Source of the DNA: a virus
DNA: 23,430 nt
IMG/VR virus record: IMGVR_UViG_3300025168_000693
Location: 1-23,430 of that record
Direction: 5' to 3' (one strand)
In this document: positions 3,704 through 23,166 of the stretch, in pieces
Layout of the letters: every line of letters begins with the position of its first letter
How positions within the stretch are numbered: position 1 is the stretch's first letter
The notes under the pieces: generated by a model
Database searches by the model: none
What the model was told of the DNA's origin: nothing
What the model saw: the letters and a program-made list of their open reading frames with translations, nothing else
Program-made: the position numbers and the translations under genes

Positions 3704-6700
3704 TTATTTACAATTACATATTTTTTTAGATAACTCATCAATTTGTTTTTGTTGCTCTTTTATAGCTTCAATTAATAAAGGTACTATTCTTTCATATTTA
3801 ACAGTTAAAAAATTATGATCCTCACCAGTTTTTTCTTTGTATGGTGCATTCATAGGTGCTGTTAAAACTGCTTCTGGTAATACCTTTTCAATTTCTTGAG
3901 CCAATACACCAACTTCATGCATATTGTTTGGGTGAAAATCATATTTTTCTTTTATATCATCAACCCAATCATATTCAACACCATTAATTTGTTTTATTTT
4001 CTCTATTGGATTGCTAATATTTTTTACATTAGTTTTCAATCTTTTATCAGATGCATAAGCAACAACATCACCAGTTAAACTTAATGTACCATTTGTTGCA
4101 CCAAGCTCCATTTTTGTACTAGCAGTTGCACCACCACCACCTGAACCTCCAGTTTCCCAAATCCAACCATAAGTAGATACTCCCTCCATTCTTGACCTTA
4201 ATGCCCAAGATGTTACACTAGTTAAACCACTAGGTGCTGTTAAATTACCATTTGGTCCACAGCCACTAGTTCCAGCACTTGCCATATAATTTTGCCAGTT
4301 ATAGTAAGTATCATTATACCAGCTTATACCAGTGTCTGTACCACTAGCACGATTTAATCTTATACCTTTTCTGTGTTTTGATGTATAATAGAATGTACTC
4401 CTACCAGCACTATCCATTATCATTCCCTCACTATAACTAGAACCAGATTTTGTAAATAAAGATAATTCACCAGATGCCCAATTACCTGGTGTACCAGCAG
4501 TTTTTCTAGCCATTATACCAGCAATAGTTACAGTATTACCGCCACTAGATGATTCTAATGATGAAAATGATAATTTTGTCATTGAATTATTGGGACCACT
4601 TTCATTATGAATACATATACCAGCTGGTGCTTCATCAATACCACCAGTTCTTGTACTGTCTTGTCTAATCATAAAAGCTGGCTGATGTAAATATGCACTG
4701 TTGCTATCAACATAACCATCATATATATAAGAGCCACCACTTGAGCTGGTTGGACCATTAAACATCGCAATACCTCTTACATCAAAAAATCTTAATGGTG
4801 CTGTTATAGTACCAAATGAAACTTTACCATATCTGTCAATAGTCATTCTATGAGTTACAGTACCAGAATCACTGGTTTCTATATTAAAGAAATTATCACC
4901 TGATCCCTCATAATATATTCGATTACCCCATCTTGCACCACCACCACTATTTTCACATAGTATTAAAGATGCTTCATCTCCATCATGACAACTTACATTG
5001 ATTGTTGGTTTTGTTCCGTTTGTATCATTGTAAACGTGCAAAAATGGTGTATTAGATGCATAACCGCTTGTTCCACAAGTTGGGTTTGATATACCAATTC
5101 CAAGTTTACCGCCATTATCCATAGCAATATTACCATTGGTTAAAAATCTTAGTTTATAGCTGTCATTCGGTCCAATATATAATTCTTCACCAGAACCAGC
5201 AACCATTTGAATTGCATTAGTTCCAGCATTTTTAATATATAAATTGCTATCACCATCAACCTCAAATCTAGCATTACCACCAGACAAATGAAACAACTCT
5301 GATGGTAATTCTGTGCCAATACCTAAACGACCATTTGCTTTTAATGTCATTTTTGTAGTTGGTAAAGTTCCACTATTACCAGCACTATTTGTAGTCATAA
5401 ATTGTATTCTACCATTGAAATTACCATCATCAGTAACTTTTATATAAGCCATGTTCCATACAGCAGAAGCAGTTGGATGACCACTTCTAAAATTCAAAAT
5501 TCCACCACCTAAATTATATCGCCCACCAATAGTTAAAACATTTGAGGTTTCTACTGAGCCAACGAGTAGTGTACCATTTGTTTCAGTTCCAGCTCCAATA
5601 CTCATATTGCCATTATCCCCATCAACTGTAAATACAGATGTACCAGTTGCATTTTGATTTCGCATAAAAGAAACATATCTGTTGTCATTATTTGCTCTGG
5701 AAAATCCCCATCTAGCATTTGGACCAAACCTTAAAATATTAGTTGTAGTTCCTGATTCAAATACTGCTGATGAATTAAATTGTAAAACCCCAGAAGTATC
5801 AGCATAAAAACCTTTTACATTATTGTAATTATTGCCACTATATAAAGAATAAAATCCACCATTTTCACCAGCATAATATTGACCATCAACTAACATGGAC
5901 ATTCTGCCACTTGAGGGATTATCAGATTGAAACACTACCTCACCCCCATTTGATGAATAACCACCAAATCTACTGCCTGGCATATTTGCACCGTTCCAAC
6001 TACCGTTAAATCCAACAACATTATTACCATTTACAGATAGAGTTGATGTAAAAGTTGCGTTTCCAGAACTGTCTATACGCATTCTTTCTGCATTATTAGT
6101 GCTGAATCGCATATAATTTGAATTATGATTATATTCTATAGAACCTATTGAAGTATTTGCAGCATCCCCAAATCTTAAAGTACTTGCAGCAGTTGAAATT
6201 ATAGTAATTCCTGATTCACTTGCACCTTTATCAATAACTAAATCATCTGCATTTGCAGCAGGTGTTCCAGTTGTTAAACTTCCTATTTTTACATTTCCTG
6301 CAAAAAATGCGTTTTGAGACGTGTCTAAAGTTAAAGCTGTAGCTGCATTTGACTGTAGTTTTAAAGCCATTCCTGATTGTGCTTGTACTATAGCTTCATT
6401 TGTGTCCCAAGTTAATTTTCCATTTGCATAAGCATTACCCCAAAAAACTTCATTAGTTCGAGTAATTCCTGTAATAGTTGCACTTGGTGCAGTTACACTT
6501 CCTGCAAAAGTTGCTGATTTATTATTTGCTATTGTTAAAGCACTAGCAGTAGAGCCAGTTCCAACTTGTAAATCTATTGTATTTGCTTGTATTTTTAAAT
6601 CTTTGTATGCTGAACCCCAGTCAACAGCCATTAACCTAGAATGAGTACCATCAAAATCTATAATTGTTGCAGGACCTTGACTAGAATTACCTTGTGTTAT

Positions 6701-9700
6701 ACCTAATGCGGCAACAGCTTGATCAGAAACTAATCTCTCATAGGGTGCAACTGTTCCAACGCCTAAATTACCAGCGGCTTTTAATGTCATTTTTGTAGTT
6801 GGTGCAGCTCCAGAATTACCACCACTTGTTGTCGTTTTAAACTCTATACGACCATTATAATTTGAATCATCTGTGACAAAAATCTGTCCCATATTCCAAA
6901 CATTAGCATTACTACCATGACCAGATCTAAAATTTAATATCGGTCCACCATTACCAGCAGAATATAAACTAGACAAAGTTAGTTGTGTGTCATTAGCCAA
7001 AGGTTTGCCAACTTCCATAGTTCCATAAGGAGTTATGCCAACAGTTGCAACACCTAATTTATTTGAAAAATAACCAGTACCAACATTACTAACTCTAAAT
7101 CTAGGTGTGCCATCATGAACACCTTGAAATATAACAAAGTCATCAAATGCATTTTCAGCCGATGTATTAGTTCCATCAGAATTTAAAACAATATGAAAAC
7201 CACCTCTAGTTTGTGCTTTTATCCAATAATTTTGATTGGTTTGACTATAGCCACCAGTTGGATAATTTGTTGCACCTATTATATTACTATAATCACCACC
7301 AGTTTCAGCAGTTCTAGCAAAATAAATATTTTGAGCAAAATTTAAATAAACATCATCATCAAAAGTTACAGTACCATTTTGAAAAGTATGTGCAGTTGCT
7401 CTATACAAGTTAGCACCAGTACCCTCATTTCCAATAACCAAAATACCACTTGCGTATATATGATCACCTTGTAAATATAAACTAGAACTATCACCAGTAC
7501 AATTTAATTGCAATACAGTGCCATTACTTGAAGCATTTTGTAATACATGAGCAGATGTTCCAGAATATGTATTAGTTATTAAACCAGTAACATCTAAAGT
7601 TCCAGTTACATCAACACCACCTAATACTGTTTCTAATACAACACCATTAGCATCATATAGTTTTACAGCATCATCTACTTTAAAAAACGTGTTTTGTTCT
7701 CCAGCATTACCAGTAACTGCATTAATTGTAAAAGCATCAACATCATCTACAACAACCATTATTCCTTCCGCAGTTGCACCAGTATTTGTTAAATAACCAC
7801 CATAAGTAGAATCAGCTCCAGCACCTAAATATAAATAACCATTAACTCTTAAATCATCAACTTCAGCACTATCAAATATTGCACCTTCAAATTCAACATT
7901 ACCAGCAAATTTAGTTTTGTTTAAAGCATTTCCACTAGCAGTATAAGCAGTTCCGCCAGTTGCAGTTCCATTAGTATATGTAGTTGTAGGAGTTACTTTG
8001 CCTCCTTTTTTACTTGTTATATTGCATTCAACAACTAAATCTCTATTGTTATCATTTGATCTAGCTTGTAATTCAAATGTATAATCAGCAGTTTTATATA
8101 CTCTTAATAAATTAGCATCTTGTCCATAAACTATAGCGTCATTATGTGTTGAGCTATCATCAATACGACCTCTAAAAGCAATACTATAATATAAAGTATT
8201 TAAACCAGCAGTAACTCCAGTATTAGTGTTTGGTTGATATACCTTAGCTTCTATTTGTACTCCGTTTGGAGTAATAGTGTTAGTTATAACAATATCAGCT
8301 ACTTTTTTCCATGTTGTTCCAGCCGCACCACTATTAGATTCAATCCATCTAAAAGTAGTTCCTATACCATCTACATTAAAGGCACTATTATCTAATTCAG
8401 TTCCTTCTCCACCTTGATATGCTATTGTATTTAAATAGGTATTACCAGTTAAGTTTCCAGTCACATTACCTGTTAAATTACCAGTAAAAGTTGGTGCGGT
8501 AACAGCACCAGTAAAAATACCAGAGCCATCAGTGTTATTTAAACGAATCATAACAGTATTTGTTTTACCACCAACATTTTGTTCAATTCCAGTTGTACTT
8601 GAACGAGTAAAATCAAAACTATTTATTGGGTTATTATGCCATATACCCCAAGCTGTATCATGTTCCATGAAAATCCAGGATGAAGTTTCACCACCACTTG
8701 TAGGATTCCTTGACCTTAAAAAAGTTGGATAAGTAGTGCTTGCATCTGATTTCATTCTTATACCCTCAGCACTAGCACCACCATCCATTTGTAATGCAAT
8801 ACCATTTTTAGTGCTTGTTATAGTATCACTAAAATTACCAGTAGTTCCAGATATTGTACCACCAGTTACGTTTCCAGTTAATGGTCCACTGAATCCAGTT
8901 GCTGTAACACTACCAACAAACGTAGCATTTTTTGATGTGTCTATTGTTAAAGCAGTTCCAGTGTTTTGTACAAATTTTAATGGATGTGTAGAGTAACTTC
9001 CTATTACAACCTCAGATTCACCAGCATATATTATTGCATTAGCATTATTATTTGTATCTAATAATCTTAAAGATGGGTTGCTGTTATTACTTATTAAAAT
9101 ATTTCCGCCAAAAGTACCGCCATTTGCTTTTGATACAAAATCTGTTGGTAATGTTTGATCACCAGTATTTGTACCAGATAAATTATTAGCACTTAAATCA
9201 CCACTAAATGTACCAGTAGTTCCAGATATTGTTCCACCAGTAACACTACCTGTTATATTACCTGTAACATTACCAGTTAAATCGCCAGTAAAAGCACCAG
9301 CAATAGCACCAGTTCCAGTAATAGTAGGTGAGGTTAAAGTTTTGTTAGTTAAGGTTTGTGTTGTTGTTAATTGTACAATATTACTATTTGTAATACTAGC
9401 AATTTTTGTAGAAGTATCAGCATTACCTGTTACATTACCTTCTAAATTAGCAACTAAAGTTGCAACTGTATATCCTGTAGCTGATGTGTTAACAGTAGTT
9501 AATGGTTTTACCGTTAAACCTGTAAACAGTTTAAATTTATCATCACTAGCATCATTAAATAATCCTTTGTATTTAGTTCCACTAGAAGCATATTTACCAA
9601 ATAATCCAATGTCTAATATATTTGCAGAATTATTTACTGCTAATTGAATTAAAGGATCATCAACTTCTAAATCTACTACATTTAAATATGTAAGAGTTCC

Positions 9701-9946
9701 GTTGACTGTTAAATTGCCACTTACTTCTAGGTTGCCTCCTATTTTAACATTATTAGAAATATGTAATCCATAATCTGATTGTGGAGTTATTCCTATTCCT
9801 ATTTGTGTTGTTGAAACATATAGAGGAGAATTATTACCAAAGCCATCTGTTAATTGTTTAGCACCAATGGTTATATTGCCATTATCACTAAACTTAACAA
9901 GTGACTGATAAGTATCTTTTATTTTAGTATTAGAAAGAGATGCCAT
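3704..9946 (-). CDS. Giant tail fibre with C-terminal S74 self-cleaving chaperone
   Basis: A 2,080-residue fibre. The N-terminus (MASLSNTKIKDTYQSLVKF) should anchor it to the virion. Then come collagen-like or beta-solenoid patches with repeated GN(V/L/I)TG motifs at about residues 167, 219-240, 352 and 484-502, followed by many strands with motifs such as MRIDSSGNATF. A 75-77 residue module occurs twice (about 989-1065 and 1471-1545). The C-terminus from about 1966 is a peptidase S74 intramolecular chaperone: SDKRLK supplies the expected Ser1966/Lys1971 dyad, GVEYDW and VGVLAQEIEKVLPEAV follow, and a C-terminal coiled coil ends the protein. Known S74 domains trimerise the fibre and then cut themselves off before the Ser. 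Thus the mature fibre would be about 1,965 residues. It probably determines host adsorption. Confidence 0.85.
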   Translation of the reverse strand: MASLSNTKIKDTYQSLVKFSDNGNITIGAKQLTDGFGNNSPLYVSTTQIGIGITPQSDYGLHISNNVKIGGNLEVSGNLTVNGTLTYLNVVDLEVDDPLIQLAVNNSANILDIGLFGKYASSGTKYKGLFNDASDDKFKLFTGLTVKPLTTVNTSATGYTVATLVANLEGNVTGNADTSTKIASITNSNIVQLTTTQTLTNKTLTSPTITGTGAIAGAFTGDLTGNVTGNITGSVTGGTISGTTGTFSGDLSANNLSGTNTGDQTLPTDFVSKANGGTFGGNILISNNSNPSLRLLDTNNNANAIIYAGESEVVIGSYSTHPLKFVQNTGTALTIDTSKNATFVGSVTATGFSGPLTGNVTGGTISGTTGNFSDTITSTKNGIALQMDGGASAEGIRMKSDASTTYPTFLRSRNPTSGGETSSWIFMEHDTAWGIWHNNPINSFDFTRSSTTGIEQNVGGKTNTVMIRLNNTDGSGIFTGAVTAPTFTGNLTGNVTGNLTGNTYLNTIAYQGGEGTELDNSAFNVDGIGTTFRWIESNSGAAGTTWKKVADIVITNTITPNGVQIEAKVYQPNTNTGVTAGLNTLYYSIAFRGRIDDSSTHNDAIVYGQDANLLRVYKTADYTFELQARSNDNNRDLVVECNITSKKGGKVTPTTTYTNGTATGGTAYTASGNALNKTKFAGNVEFEGAIFDSAEVDDLRVNGYLYLGAGADSTYGGYLTNTGATAEGIMVVVDDVDAFTINAVTGNAGEQNTFFKVDDAVKLYDANGVVLETVLGGVDVTGTLDVTGLITNTYSGTSAHVLQNASSNGTVLQLNCTGDSSSLYLQGDHIYASGILVIGNEGTGANLYRATAHTFQNGTVTFDDDVYLNFAQNIYFARTAETGGDYSNIIGATNYPTGGYSQTNQNYWIKAQTRGGFHIVLNSDGTNTSAENAFDDFVIFQGVHDGTPRFRVSNVGTGYFSNKLGVATVGITPYGTMEVGKPLANDTQLTLSSLYSAGNGGPILNFRSGHGSNANVWNMGQIFVTDDSNYNGRIEFKTTTSGGNSGAAPTTKMTLKAAGNLGVGTVAPYERLVSDQAVAALGITQGNSSQGPATIIDFDGTHSRLMAVDWGSAYKDLKIQANTIDLQVGTGSTASALTIANNKSATFAGSVTAPSATITGITRTNEVFWGNAYANGKLTWDTNEAIVQAQSGMALKLQSNAATALTLDTSQNAFFAGNVKIGSLTTGTPAANADDLVIDKGASESGITIISTAASTLRFGDAANTSIGSIEYNHNSNYMRFSTNNAERMRIDSSGNATFTSTLSVNGNNVVGFNGSWNGANMPGSRFGGYSSNGGEVVFQSDNPSSGRMSMLVDGQYYAGENGGFYSLYSGNNYNNVKGFYADTSGVLQFNSSAVFESGTTTNILRFGPNARWGFSRANNDNRYVSFMRNQNATGTSVFTVDGDNGNMSIGAGTETNGTLLVGSVETSNVLTIGGRYNLGGGILNFRSGHPTASAVWNMAYIKVTDDGNFNGRIQFMTTNSAGNSGTLPTTKMTLKANGRLGIGTELPSELFHLSGGNARFEVDGDSNLYIKNAGTNAIQMVAGSGEELYIGPNDSYKLRFLTNGNIAMDNGGKLGIGISNPTCGTSGYASNTPFLHVYNDTNGTKPTINVSCHDGDEASLILCENSGGGARWGNRIYYEGSGDNFFNIETSDSGTVTHRMTIDRYGKVSFGTITAPLRFFDVRGIAMFNGPTSSSGGSYIYDGYVDSNSAYLHQPAFMIRQDSTRTGGIDEAPAGICIHNESGPNNSMTKLSFSSLESSSGGNTVTIAGIMARKTAGTPGNWASGELSLFTKSGSSYSEGMIMDSAGRSTFYYTSKHRKGIRLNRASGTDTGISWYNDTYYNWQNYMASAGTSGCGPNGNLTAPSGLTSVTSWALRSRMEGVSTYGWIWETGGSGGGGATASTKMELGATNGTLSLTGDVVAYASDKRLKTNVKNISNPIEKIKQINGVEYDWVDDIKEKYDFHPNNMHEVGVLAQEIEKVLPEAVLTAPMNAPYKEKTGEDHNFLTVKYERIVPLLIEAIKEQQKQIDELSKKICNCK
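5312..5536 (-). repeat. Second copy of a duplicated fibre module
   Basis: Encodes fibre residues 1471-1545. It aligns with residues 989-1065 through shared blocks ILNFRSGH, VWNM, VTDD, NGRI, NSG, PTTKMTLKA and G.LG.GT. A stretch of about 25 nt over the PTTKMTLK codons is identical in the two copies, which indicates a fairly recent or recombining duplication. Confidence 0.8.
6752..6982 (-). repeat. First copy of a duplicated fibre module
   Basis: Encodes fibre residues 989-1065, the partner of the copy at 5312-5536. The blocks and spacing match over the full length except for a two-residue difference near the start. Such modules could be exchanged by recombination to change fibre length. Confidence 0.8.
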
Positions 9947-21676: not shown

Positions 21677-22167
21677 TAGCAAGCAGATTGACCGTTAGAA
21701 TTAATATCTGATATTTGATTGTTAGCCACAGTAATAGATATGTCTAAACTCCAACCAGCAAGCAAGTTTTCAAACCTGTCCTCAAACATATTTGCAGTAT
21801 AGTCAGTATCTATTTGATATAAGTCAGAAAACAATTCTCCTCTTCTTAATGCAGATTGTAATCCGTTGACAACAGCAAATTGAGTATTAAGTACATCTTG
21901 CTTATTATTTATATCATGAAAGTAATTGTTTAAATCCTTTACATCTTCTTTAGTTTCATTTACAATATCCATACAGATAACCTGTATATTGAATTGCACT
22001 ACATGATCTTGAAACGTACATCCATTTACAATTATATGTGACAATGGAAATATAGTTTGTTTAGATAAGTCAACTTCAAATATGTCACCAAAAGTAACTG
22101 AATTAACATTTGAGTTACCTTGAAGGTATGTTTTAAGTTTGTCTAGTATGTCGTAAAAACCTGTCAT
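21676..22167 (-). CDS. Probable tail-terminator-type protein
   Basis: A 163-residue alpha/beta protein starting MTGFYDILDKLKTYLQGNSN. The N-terminal helix, the FPLSHIIVNGCTFQDHVVQF strands (about 41-60), a long helix with NETKEDVKDLNNYFHDI, and the FENLLAGWSLDISITVAN end (about 132-149) resemble small tail-completion proteins. Its ATG overlaps the TGA that ends the -1 frame of the chaperone (ATGA), which itself supports that hidden frame. It has a TAATG junction with the gp10-like gene. The role is inferred from size, fold type and position. Confidence 0.5.
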   Translation of the reverse strand: MTGFYDILDKLKTYLQGNSNVNSVTFGDIFEVDLSKQTIFPLSHIIVNGCTFQDHVVQFNIQVICMDIVNETKEDVKDLNNYFHDINNKQDVLNTQFAVVNGLQSALRRGELFSDLYQIDTDYTANMFEDRFENLLAGWSLDISITVANNQISDINSNGQSAC

Positions 22168-22427
22168 CTTTTATATGCTTTTTTTATTTCTTGTTGTTCT
22201 ATCTCTACTTTTTCTTTTTCAAATGCCAAGTAATTTAAACACTCGTAGAGTGGAAGTTCGGTAACTGCATTGAAGTTTCTGACATCTCCTTTAGCGAGTG
22301 CATAAACTGATTGATACCAACCCCATTTTTTTGCAAATGTTGATCTAGCATCTGCATATCCTCTTTCTTCAGGTTCTGTTCCAAATATTTCGGTATAGCT
22401 CCCAGTAACTCCTTCCCTAAAGCGTAA
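22164..22427 (-). CDS. -1 frameshift extension of the tail-assembly chaperone (gpT-like)
   Basis: From 22427 the -1 frame reads 87 residues, starting LRFREGVTGSYTEIF. It includes AKKWGWYQSVYALAKGD and TELPLYECLNYLAFEKEK, then a charged helix to a TGA at 22164. KWGWY...YALA.GD...F..V..L...E.L..La...EK is the pattern of the C-terminal part of phage tail-assembly chaperones. The frame has no ATG and is closed by a TAG only about three codons before the T9 run, so it can be reached only by slippage. The joined product would be about 262 residues (175 + 87). In lambda the equivalent gpGT recruits the tail tube to the tape measure. A lost T in the run (sequencing error) is the main alternative. Confidence 0.75.
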   Translation of the reverse strand, partial: LRFREGVTGSYTEIFGTEPEERGYADARSTFAKKWGWYQSVYALAKGDVRNFNAVTELPLYECLNYLAFEKEKVEIEQQEIKKAYKR

Positions 22428-22951
22428 AAAAAAACCATTGAACTAATAGCTACATCTAATGGCATATCTTTCATAGCTTCTTGTATTTCTTCATTTACCT
22501 TGTAAGGAGCAATTCCATATTTATCTTCTGCCTTAAAATTAACAGGTCGATACAATACAGCCATAGCTTTATGCATTTTTTGCCAATCAGTAATGTTAGT
22601 TTCTAAATCAACATATTCACCAAGTGTAATATCATCTAGTTTAGGAATAAATCCCATATCTATATCTAACAAGTTAAATCTTTGTATTAGCTTAGGTTTC
22701 TCTTCAAACGCTTTGTTTAATACTATCAATACTTTTTTATATTCTTTTAGTGGTATTTTAATTACATCCTTTAATGATACGTTACAGAATATTTCTACAA
22801 GTTTCATATTCAAGAAATCATTTATTTTGTCTTCGTCTTCGGCATCTTCCATTTTGTTTTGATCTATGATCTTCATATACTTTTGATATTGCCAAAGTTT
22901 AATGTCAGATAGAGTTGTTGGTACTTGTAATTCGATTTGCTTTAGTGCCAT
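22235..22951 (-). CDS. Tail-assembly chaperone, unshifted product (gpG-like)
   Basis: A 238-residue, mostly helical protein starting MALKQIELQVPTTLSDIKLW. The N-terminal two thirds (KYMKIIDQNK; LGEYVDLETNITDWQKMHKA, about 111-130; AMAVLYRPV) look like tail-assembly chaperone N-domains of marine phages. After codon 175 (MVFF) the zero frame continues YALGKELLGAIPKYLEQNL and ends at 22235, while the -1 frame carries the second domain. About 190 nt are therefore read in two frames. The short form would be the abundant one, as in lambda. The gene follows a 215-nt gap with 17-bp repeats and is the first of the tail operon. No TAnnTTTG box lies in that gap. Confidence 0.7.
   Translation of the reverse strand: MALKQIELQVPTTLSDIKLWQYQKYMKIIDQNKMEDAEDEDKINDFLNMKLVEIFCNVSLKDVIKIPLKEYKKVLIVLNKAFEEKPKLIQRFNLLDIDMGFIPKLDDITLGEYVDLETNITDWQKMHKAMAVLYRPVNFKAEDKYGIAPYKVNEEIQEAMKDMPLDVAISSMVFFYALGKELLGAIPKYLEQNLKKEDMQMLDQHLQKNGVGINQFMHSLKEMSETSMQLPNFHSTSV
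22426..22435 (-). promoter_or_regulatory. Slippery site for -1 ribosomal frameshifting
   Basis: The minus strand reads G followed by nine T. In the zero frame (GTT TTT TTT TAC) this gives the heptamer T TTT TTT, which allows both tRNAs to re-pair one base back. The -1 frame opens just upstream and codes for the chaperone extension downstream. Confidence 0.7.
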
Positions 22952-23046
22952 ATTATAATTAATAGTTTAGTTTGATTTTGTACTTTAGGTTTTCCAACTG
23001 AACATCTGTCAGTTATATATGTATTATTAAGTGTATGTTACATATA

Positions 23047-23069
23047 GTGTATTACACTATGTAATACAC
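23047..23069. repeat. Perfect 9-bp inverted repeat
   Basis: GTGTATTAC and GTAATACAC flank a 5-base spacer (ACTAT) in the non-coding gap before the tail operon. The spacer and right arm also form a partial copy of the 17-bp unit found at 23084-23151. There is no T-tract suggesting a terminator on the minus strand; a protein-binding palindrome is more likely. Confidence 0.65.
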
Positions 23070-23083
23070 GTTGTAATATATTA

Positions 23084-23151
23084 CACTATGCAATATAATA
23101 CATTATGTAATATAATACACTATGTATTATAATACACTATGTATATATATA
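23084..23151. repeat. Four 17-bp tandem repeats
   Basis: Four direct copies of a unit close to CACTATGTAATATAATA lie end to end at 23084, 23101, 23118 and 23135, with one to a few changes per copy; the 11-base start recurs at 23055. The array fills the only large non-coding gap (22952-23166). The rest of that gap holds the 9-bp inverted repeat and A/T-rich sequence. It may be an operator array, a promoter region or replication iterons. Confidence 0.8.
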
Positions 23152-23166
23152 ATAACTATAATCTGA

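Follow-up and report, generated by a model that had tools for sequence, protein, structure and literature searches.

A probable −1 frameshift on a T9 run and its second domain in a gene family of Bacteroidota phages and prophages

Known frameshift genes and the present locus

The closest described system is the tail-assembly chaperone pair gpG/gpGT of phage lambda, reportedly worked out by Xu, Hendrix and Duda. Lambda shifts at the slippery site G GGA AAG, and the N-terminal domain of the pair binds the tape measure while the C-terminal domain recruits the tail-tube protein. In phage P2, a contractile-tail phage, the products E and E+E' arise from a −1 shift at T TTT TTG. Low-level −1 shifting is widespread in the tail chaperone genes of tailed phages (PMC5009743), and in E. 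coli 6–7% shifting was measured for two genes of this kind (PMC3711429). Where −1 frameshift genes with two products have been reported from tailed phages, most of them encode tail chaperones (PMC5009743, PMC10885494). The principle of frameshifting is already known; what is new here is the gene family, the position of the slip about 190 nt before the zero-frame stop, a zero frame that is kept open with little constraint on its sequence, and a series of slip sites ranging from T7 to T10.

The window, i.e. the whole stretch of 23,430 nt that was analysed (IMG/VR record IMGVR_UViG_3300025168_000693), carries the structural module of a tailed phage, with portal, head proteins, protease and a tape-measure-like protein. 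On its minus strand, a 238-aa ORF contains a run of nine T (22434–22426) in the zero-frame phase ATG GTT TTT TTT TAC (Table 1). The run at the slip is the longest A/T run of the window, in which T runs of at least eight are rarer than in shuffled sequences. The −1 frame comprises 89 codons when the two shared TTT codons are included (87 past the slip), lacks Met codons, and is closed by a TGA (22166–22164) overlapping the start codon of the following gene (ATG at 22167). After the slip, the zero frame has 63 more codons before its TAA, which has 22235 as its last base. All of this (the run and its T TTT TTT phase, the upstream TAG, the absence of ATG, the length and the overlapping stop) is present in the sequence as given in a preliminary description of the locus. 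That a −1 shift on the T9 run fuses an otherwise hidden second domain to the product of the 238-aa gene is strongly supported by the comparisons presented below.

Table 1 Features of the frameshift locus and of its downstream genes within the window
Feature	Position	Strand	Remarks
Zero-frame ORF, 238 aa	22235..22951	(−)	Conserved N-terminal domain (residues ~1–182) and 63-aa zero-frame-only tail past the slip
−1 frame TAG	22443..22445	(−)	Three codons ahead of the T9 run
Slippery heptamer T TTT TTT	22433–22427	(−)	Phase-locked to the zero frame, within T9 22426..22434
−1 frame second domain	22164..22433	(−)	87 codons post-slip, no ATG
Dual-frame stretch, ~190 nt	22235..22426	(−)	Zero frame kept free of stops; −1 frame dominates the amino acids
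Next gene, 163 aa	21676..22167	(−)	Start codon overlaps the −1 frame stop
Tape-measure-like protein, 615 aa	15515..17362	(−)	Fifth gene after the frameshift gene, same transcriptional direction

As in lambda gpG/gpGT, the shift is located towards the end of the gene for the N domain, within a tailed-phage structural module, the longer product is predicted to be the minor one, and the second domain has no start of its own. Unlike in lambda, the slip takes place at T TTT TTT within T9, homology is not detectable, and the tape-measure gene is not adjacent. The T-rich heptamer is shared with P2, taking the P2 site from general knowledge, and no sequence match between the frameshift gene and P2 was found. 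The distance from slip to stop is also unusual, being about 63 codons here versus an average of 26–36 nt in surveyed phages (PMC10885494). Gene callers miss the second domain because the slip is located this far ahead of the zero-frame stop.

Conservation and dual coding among relatives

Scans with the zero frame and with the −1 frame each returned 80 loci, the latter being viral relatives with 52–89% identity, and profile scans found more. In the resulting set, the second domain is in −1 relation in 405 of 406 loci. The exception (L249, from a metagenome contig) has a T10 run and an odd frame, which may reflect either an assembly error or a natural variant of the run length; one further locus of the set (L219) is truncated. 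At the level of distinct junctions, the expected phase was found in 263 out of 264, and the 263 phase-checked relatives, which form 66 clusters at 70% amino acid identity, all combine the −1 relation with a run of at least nine T (246 with T9 and 17 with T10, never shorter). Two clusters (L365 and L378) have C directly after the last TTT codon and keep nine T via an upstream TTT. Where the second frame of the relatives has an ATG at all, the first one nearly always lies well downstream. Matches in the phages collection are limited to the cultured Nonlabens phages P12024L and P12024S; in their homologous genes (40+41 and 38+39) the T9 run has an identical phase, the second domain lies in −1, and the two halves are annotated as unrelated hypothetical proteins. 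They differ from the present phage in that the zero frame stops 28 codons after the slip codon and that the second protein is annotated from an internal ATG. The family as a whole spans hundreds of marine viral contigs, and among 350 genomes sampled from one Bacteroidota order, 78 have a homologue.

Since homopolymers are error-prone in sequencing, the T9 run might be a misread T10, in which case the gene would have one continuous frame, as the preliminary description had allowed for. This explanation has a negligible probability and is refuted by the relatives. The 263 distinct loci and the cultured phages have T9 or else T10, the latter also with the second domain in −1 (all 17 T10 relatives included), not one continuous-frame relative was found in the family, and the zero frame remains open beyond the slip. 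Judged by its sequence conservation, the T9 arrangement is biology, shared across a large and mostly unannotated family of Bacteroidota phages and prophages. The programmed shift proposed in the preliminary description is strongly supported in this way, the −1 relation being kept in 263 of 263 relatives, with T9 or T10 in these and the heptamer T TTT TTT in deeper ones.

Substitution rates at the zero-frame codon positions 1/2/3, obtained from 2155 sequence pairs that are not independent, are.19/.11/.42 upstream of the slip,.14/.24/.21 in the overlap and.10/.28/.15 past the zero-frame stop. This switch corresponds to zero-frame-only, dual and −1-only coding, respectively, and establishes both frames as coding. 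The zero frame of the relatives reaches 50–69 codons after the slip without a stop, at a frequency well above chance: when the −1 codons were resampled synonymously it typically closed after about 9 codons, and a frame as long as that observed is expected in about 4 of 66 clusters, while it was observed in all 66. The +1 frame closes within 3–11 codons, whereas the zero and −1 frames stay open. The amino acid identity of the zero frame in the overlap is only slightly above the value expected from the −1 constraint (0.611 versus 0.588), which indicates that the openness of this frame is selected more than its sequence. The zero-frame amino acids in the overlap are thus barely constrained. The earlier claim that about 190 nt are coding in two frames consequently stands as far as the open zero frame is concerned, and has to be weakened for the amino acids it encodes.

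Ribosomal or polymerase slippage

Distant prophage homologues (12–19% identity) keep the −1 relation with runs of 7–9 T. In another Bacteroidota order, where the homologue occurs in the 78 of 350 sampled genomes mentioned above, usually in one copy (loci L436–L465 and L466), 25 of 29 readable junctions have a bare T7, nearly all of them as CAT TTT TTT Axx. The His codon CAC makes up 50 of 112 elsewhere in these ORFs, yet CAT is nearly fixed at the junction; likewise, TTC accounts for 17% elsewhere, yet TTT TTT is used at the junction. The heptamer rule X XXY YYZ is the sole explanation for the fixed T of CAT. The only element common to all junctions is xxT TTT TTT in the zero-frame phase, i.e. 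the ribosomal X XXY YYZ heptamer, and this, together with the near fixation of CAT, favours ribosomal −1 frameshifting. The frequency of the gene in this order also suggests a very common prophage or tail-like element.

We consider it probable that the ribosome slips back by one base at T TTT TTT with low efficiency, and that the two products act as a tail-assembly chaperone pair. The majority of ribosomes would read GTT TTT TTT TAC in frame, giving the 238-aa, G-like protein, while a minority would slip and produce a GT-like fusion of the first ~175 residues with the 87-residue helical domain encoded in the −1 frame only. In the pair, the N-terminal domain would bind the tape measure and the C-terminal domain would recruit the tail-tube protein. 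Neither the RNA downstream of the slip (mean z of 0.15 over 66 clusters) nor its consensus fold yielded a structure or meaningful covariation; a long-range pseudoknot may exist. Bacteroidia ribosomes fail to recognise Shine-Dalgarno sequences (PMC9976891), and a stimulator of that kind is therefore not expected.

A different reading, which the preliminary description does not mention and which we regard as unlikely, is that the RNA polymerase slips on T9 and adds a U to some mRNAs, ordinary translation of the resulting T10 mRNAs giving the fusion, as in Shigella mxiE. Like mxiE and the bacterial 9A/9T genes, the locus has a T run joining two overlapping ORFs in −1 relation; unlike them, it is a phage structural gene with deep homologues that retain just 7 T, locked to the zero-frame phase. 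Several observations favour the polymerase. Every member of the phage clade has at least nine T where T7 would suffice, A/T runs in many bacteria are prone to slippage from a length of nine onwards (PMC1088944), and an RNA stimulator was not found. The base at T8, which could be C with both proteins unchanged, differs in 28 of 2183 pair comparisons (1.3%), while comparable doubly synonymous sites differ in 166 of 750 (22%). This is far less variation than T TTT TTY alone would need, and counts against a plain heptamer explanation. The loci listed with C at this position have an extra T-rich codon upstream, and a T10 run is still present. With both protein sequences fixed and T TTT TTN as the sole requirement, the probability of at least nine T in all 66 clusters would be about 1e-5 if the clusters were independent, which they are not. 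Taken together, the long run in all clusters and the nearly invariant T8 give a hint that run length is selected, in keeping with slippage of the RNA polymerase. A ribosomal preference for UUU over UUC would however explain T8 equally well. The deep relatives with T9 have it in two different codon phases (xTT TTT TTT Txx and xxT TTT TTT TTR), as would suit a polymerase, but in the second phase the amino acids alone fix the nine T. Run length itself counts against the polymerase: a homopolymer of about nine or more A/T is found throughout the phage clade and not in the T7 deep homologues (25 of 29 readable junctions), and homologous prophage genes with a phase-locked T TTT TTT or with T8 have the same −1 architecture. 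With a rather low probability, both processes are involved, the T7-type ribosomal slip site having been lengthened to T9 in the flavobacterial phage clade, with polymerase slippage contributing to or setting the product ratio, and the unshifted protein having its own alternative tail of ~63 residues from the second-domain DNA. The T7, T8, T9 and T10 sites constitute a natural series for asking whether the ribosome or the RNA polymerase slips, in bacteria whose ribosomes do not use Shine-Dalgarno stimulators.

T9 runs are also seen in related loci ~500–550 and 1200–1400 nt upstream of the slip, mostly in intergenic DNA with short ORFs. They are often terminator-like, sometimes following G+C-rich inverted repeats, and resemble intrinsic terminators placed before the unit.

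Gene neighbourhood and candidate function

The preliminary description had likened the gene to lambda gpGT and assigned its 87-aa frame to the second domain of tail-assembly chaperones. The searches with this frame gave no chaperone family, and no tail-chaperone match was obtained for the gene in Pfam, NCBIfam or PHROGs. PHROG 32199 matches zero-frame residues 48–182 (E 3e-19), and beyond it and PHROG 38404, both of unknown function, no known family was found for either domain, nor was any solved structure in the PDB. Matches to PHROG 166 ("tail protein"), obtained for 8 of 52 members of the gene family, were judged to be due to chance; in the one member displayed, profile positions 141–197 align to residues 31–87. 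The two frames were folded separately with AlphaFold2, the zero-frame ORF giving a model with a pLDDT of 84.8, low in the tail. A fold search in BFVD returned many uncharacterised phage proteins and one weak match named tail assembly chaperone (E 0.04). The 615-aa protein resembles the tape measure of Flavobacterium phage 6H (BLASTP E 4e-7) and, weakly in tblastn, the tape-measure genes of Riemerella phages. Gp10 of phage 6H was not used to connect the gene with a standard tape-measure neighbourhood, since only a weak fold match was obtained and the −1 frame at its T TTT TTC meets a TAG. Directly after gp10, an unannotated open frame of 105 codons in −1 relation (L408, 10044–10361) may be a hidden second domain, with a junction lacking a simple slippery site.

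A lambda gpG/gpGT-like tail chaperone is our best guess for the role of the gene, a putative member of that family. The guess draws on the architecture, the neighbouring tail module, the order of TerL, frameshift gene and small protein gene shared by P12024L and the prophage L466, the single weak structural match, and the wide occurrence of low-level −1 shifting in tail chaperone genes; of the likeness to gpGT, architecture and neighbourhood hold up, while similarity in sequence or solved structure is missing and the tape measure is not adjacent. A two-domain gene with a genuine ribosomal −1 frameshift could also serve another purpose, such as packaging or head-tail joining, which we find rather improbable. 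Such a role would be in line with the undetectable similarity to known chaperones and with gene order: the frameshift gene is not located between the major tail protein and tape-measure genes and does not adjoin the latter, and in P12024L and the prophage L466 (G1422:C22:181000-194500, where it comes after TerS/TerL genes) the order is TerL, frameshift gene, ~140-aa gene. It is at odds with the predominance of tail chaperones among known two-product −1 frameshift genes of tailed phages (PMC5009743, PMC10885494), with the tape-measure-like gene in the downstream module, and with the weak fold match to an annotated tail assembly chaperone. The counterpart of the 163-aa gene also follows the frameshift gene in P12024L (31% identity).

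Two other regions of the window were noted. Upstream of the frameshift gene, the intergenic stretch 23013–23152 contains imperfect repeats with a 17-nt period together with palindromes (TACACTATGTAATATAA-like), and looks like an operator or iteron array. At 3704–9946, a 2080-aa tail-fibre-like protein is encoded, with a C-terminus (SDKRLKTNVKNI...) that by eye resembles a self-cleaving S74-type fibre chaperone.
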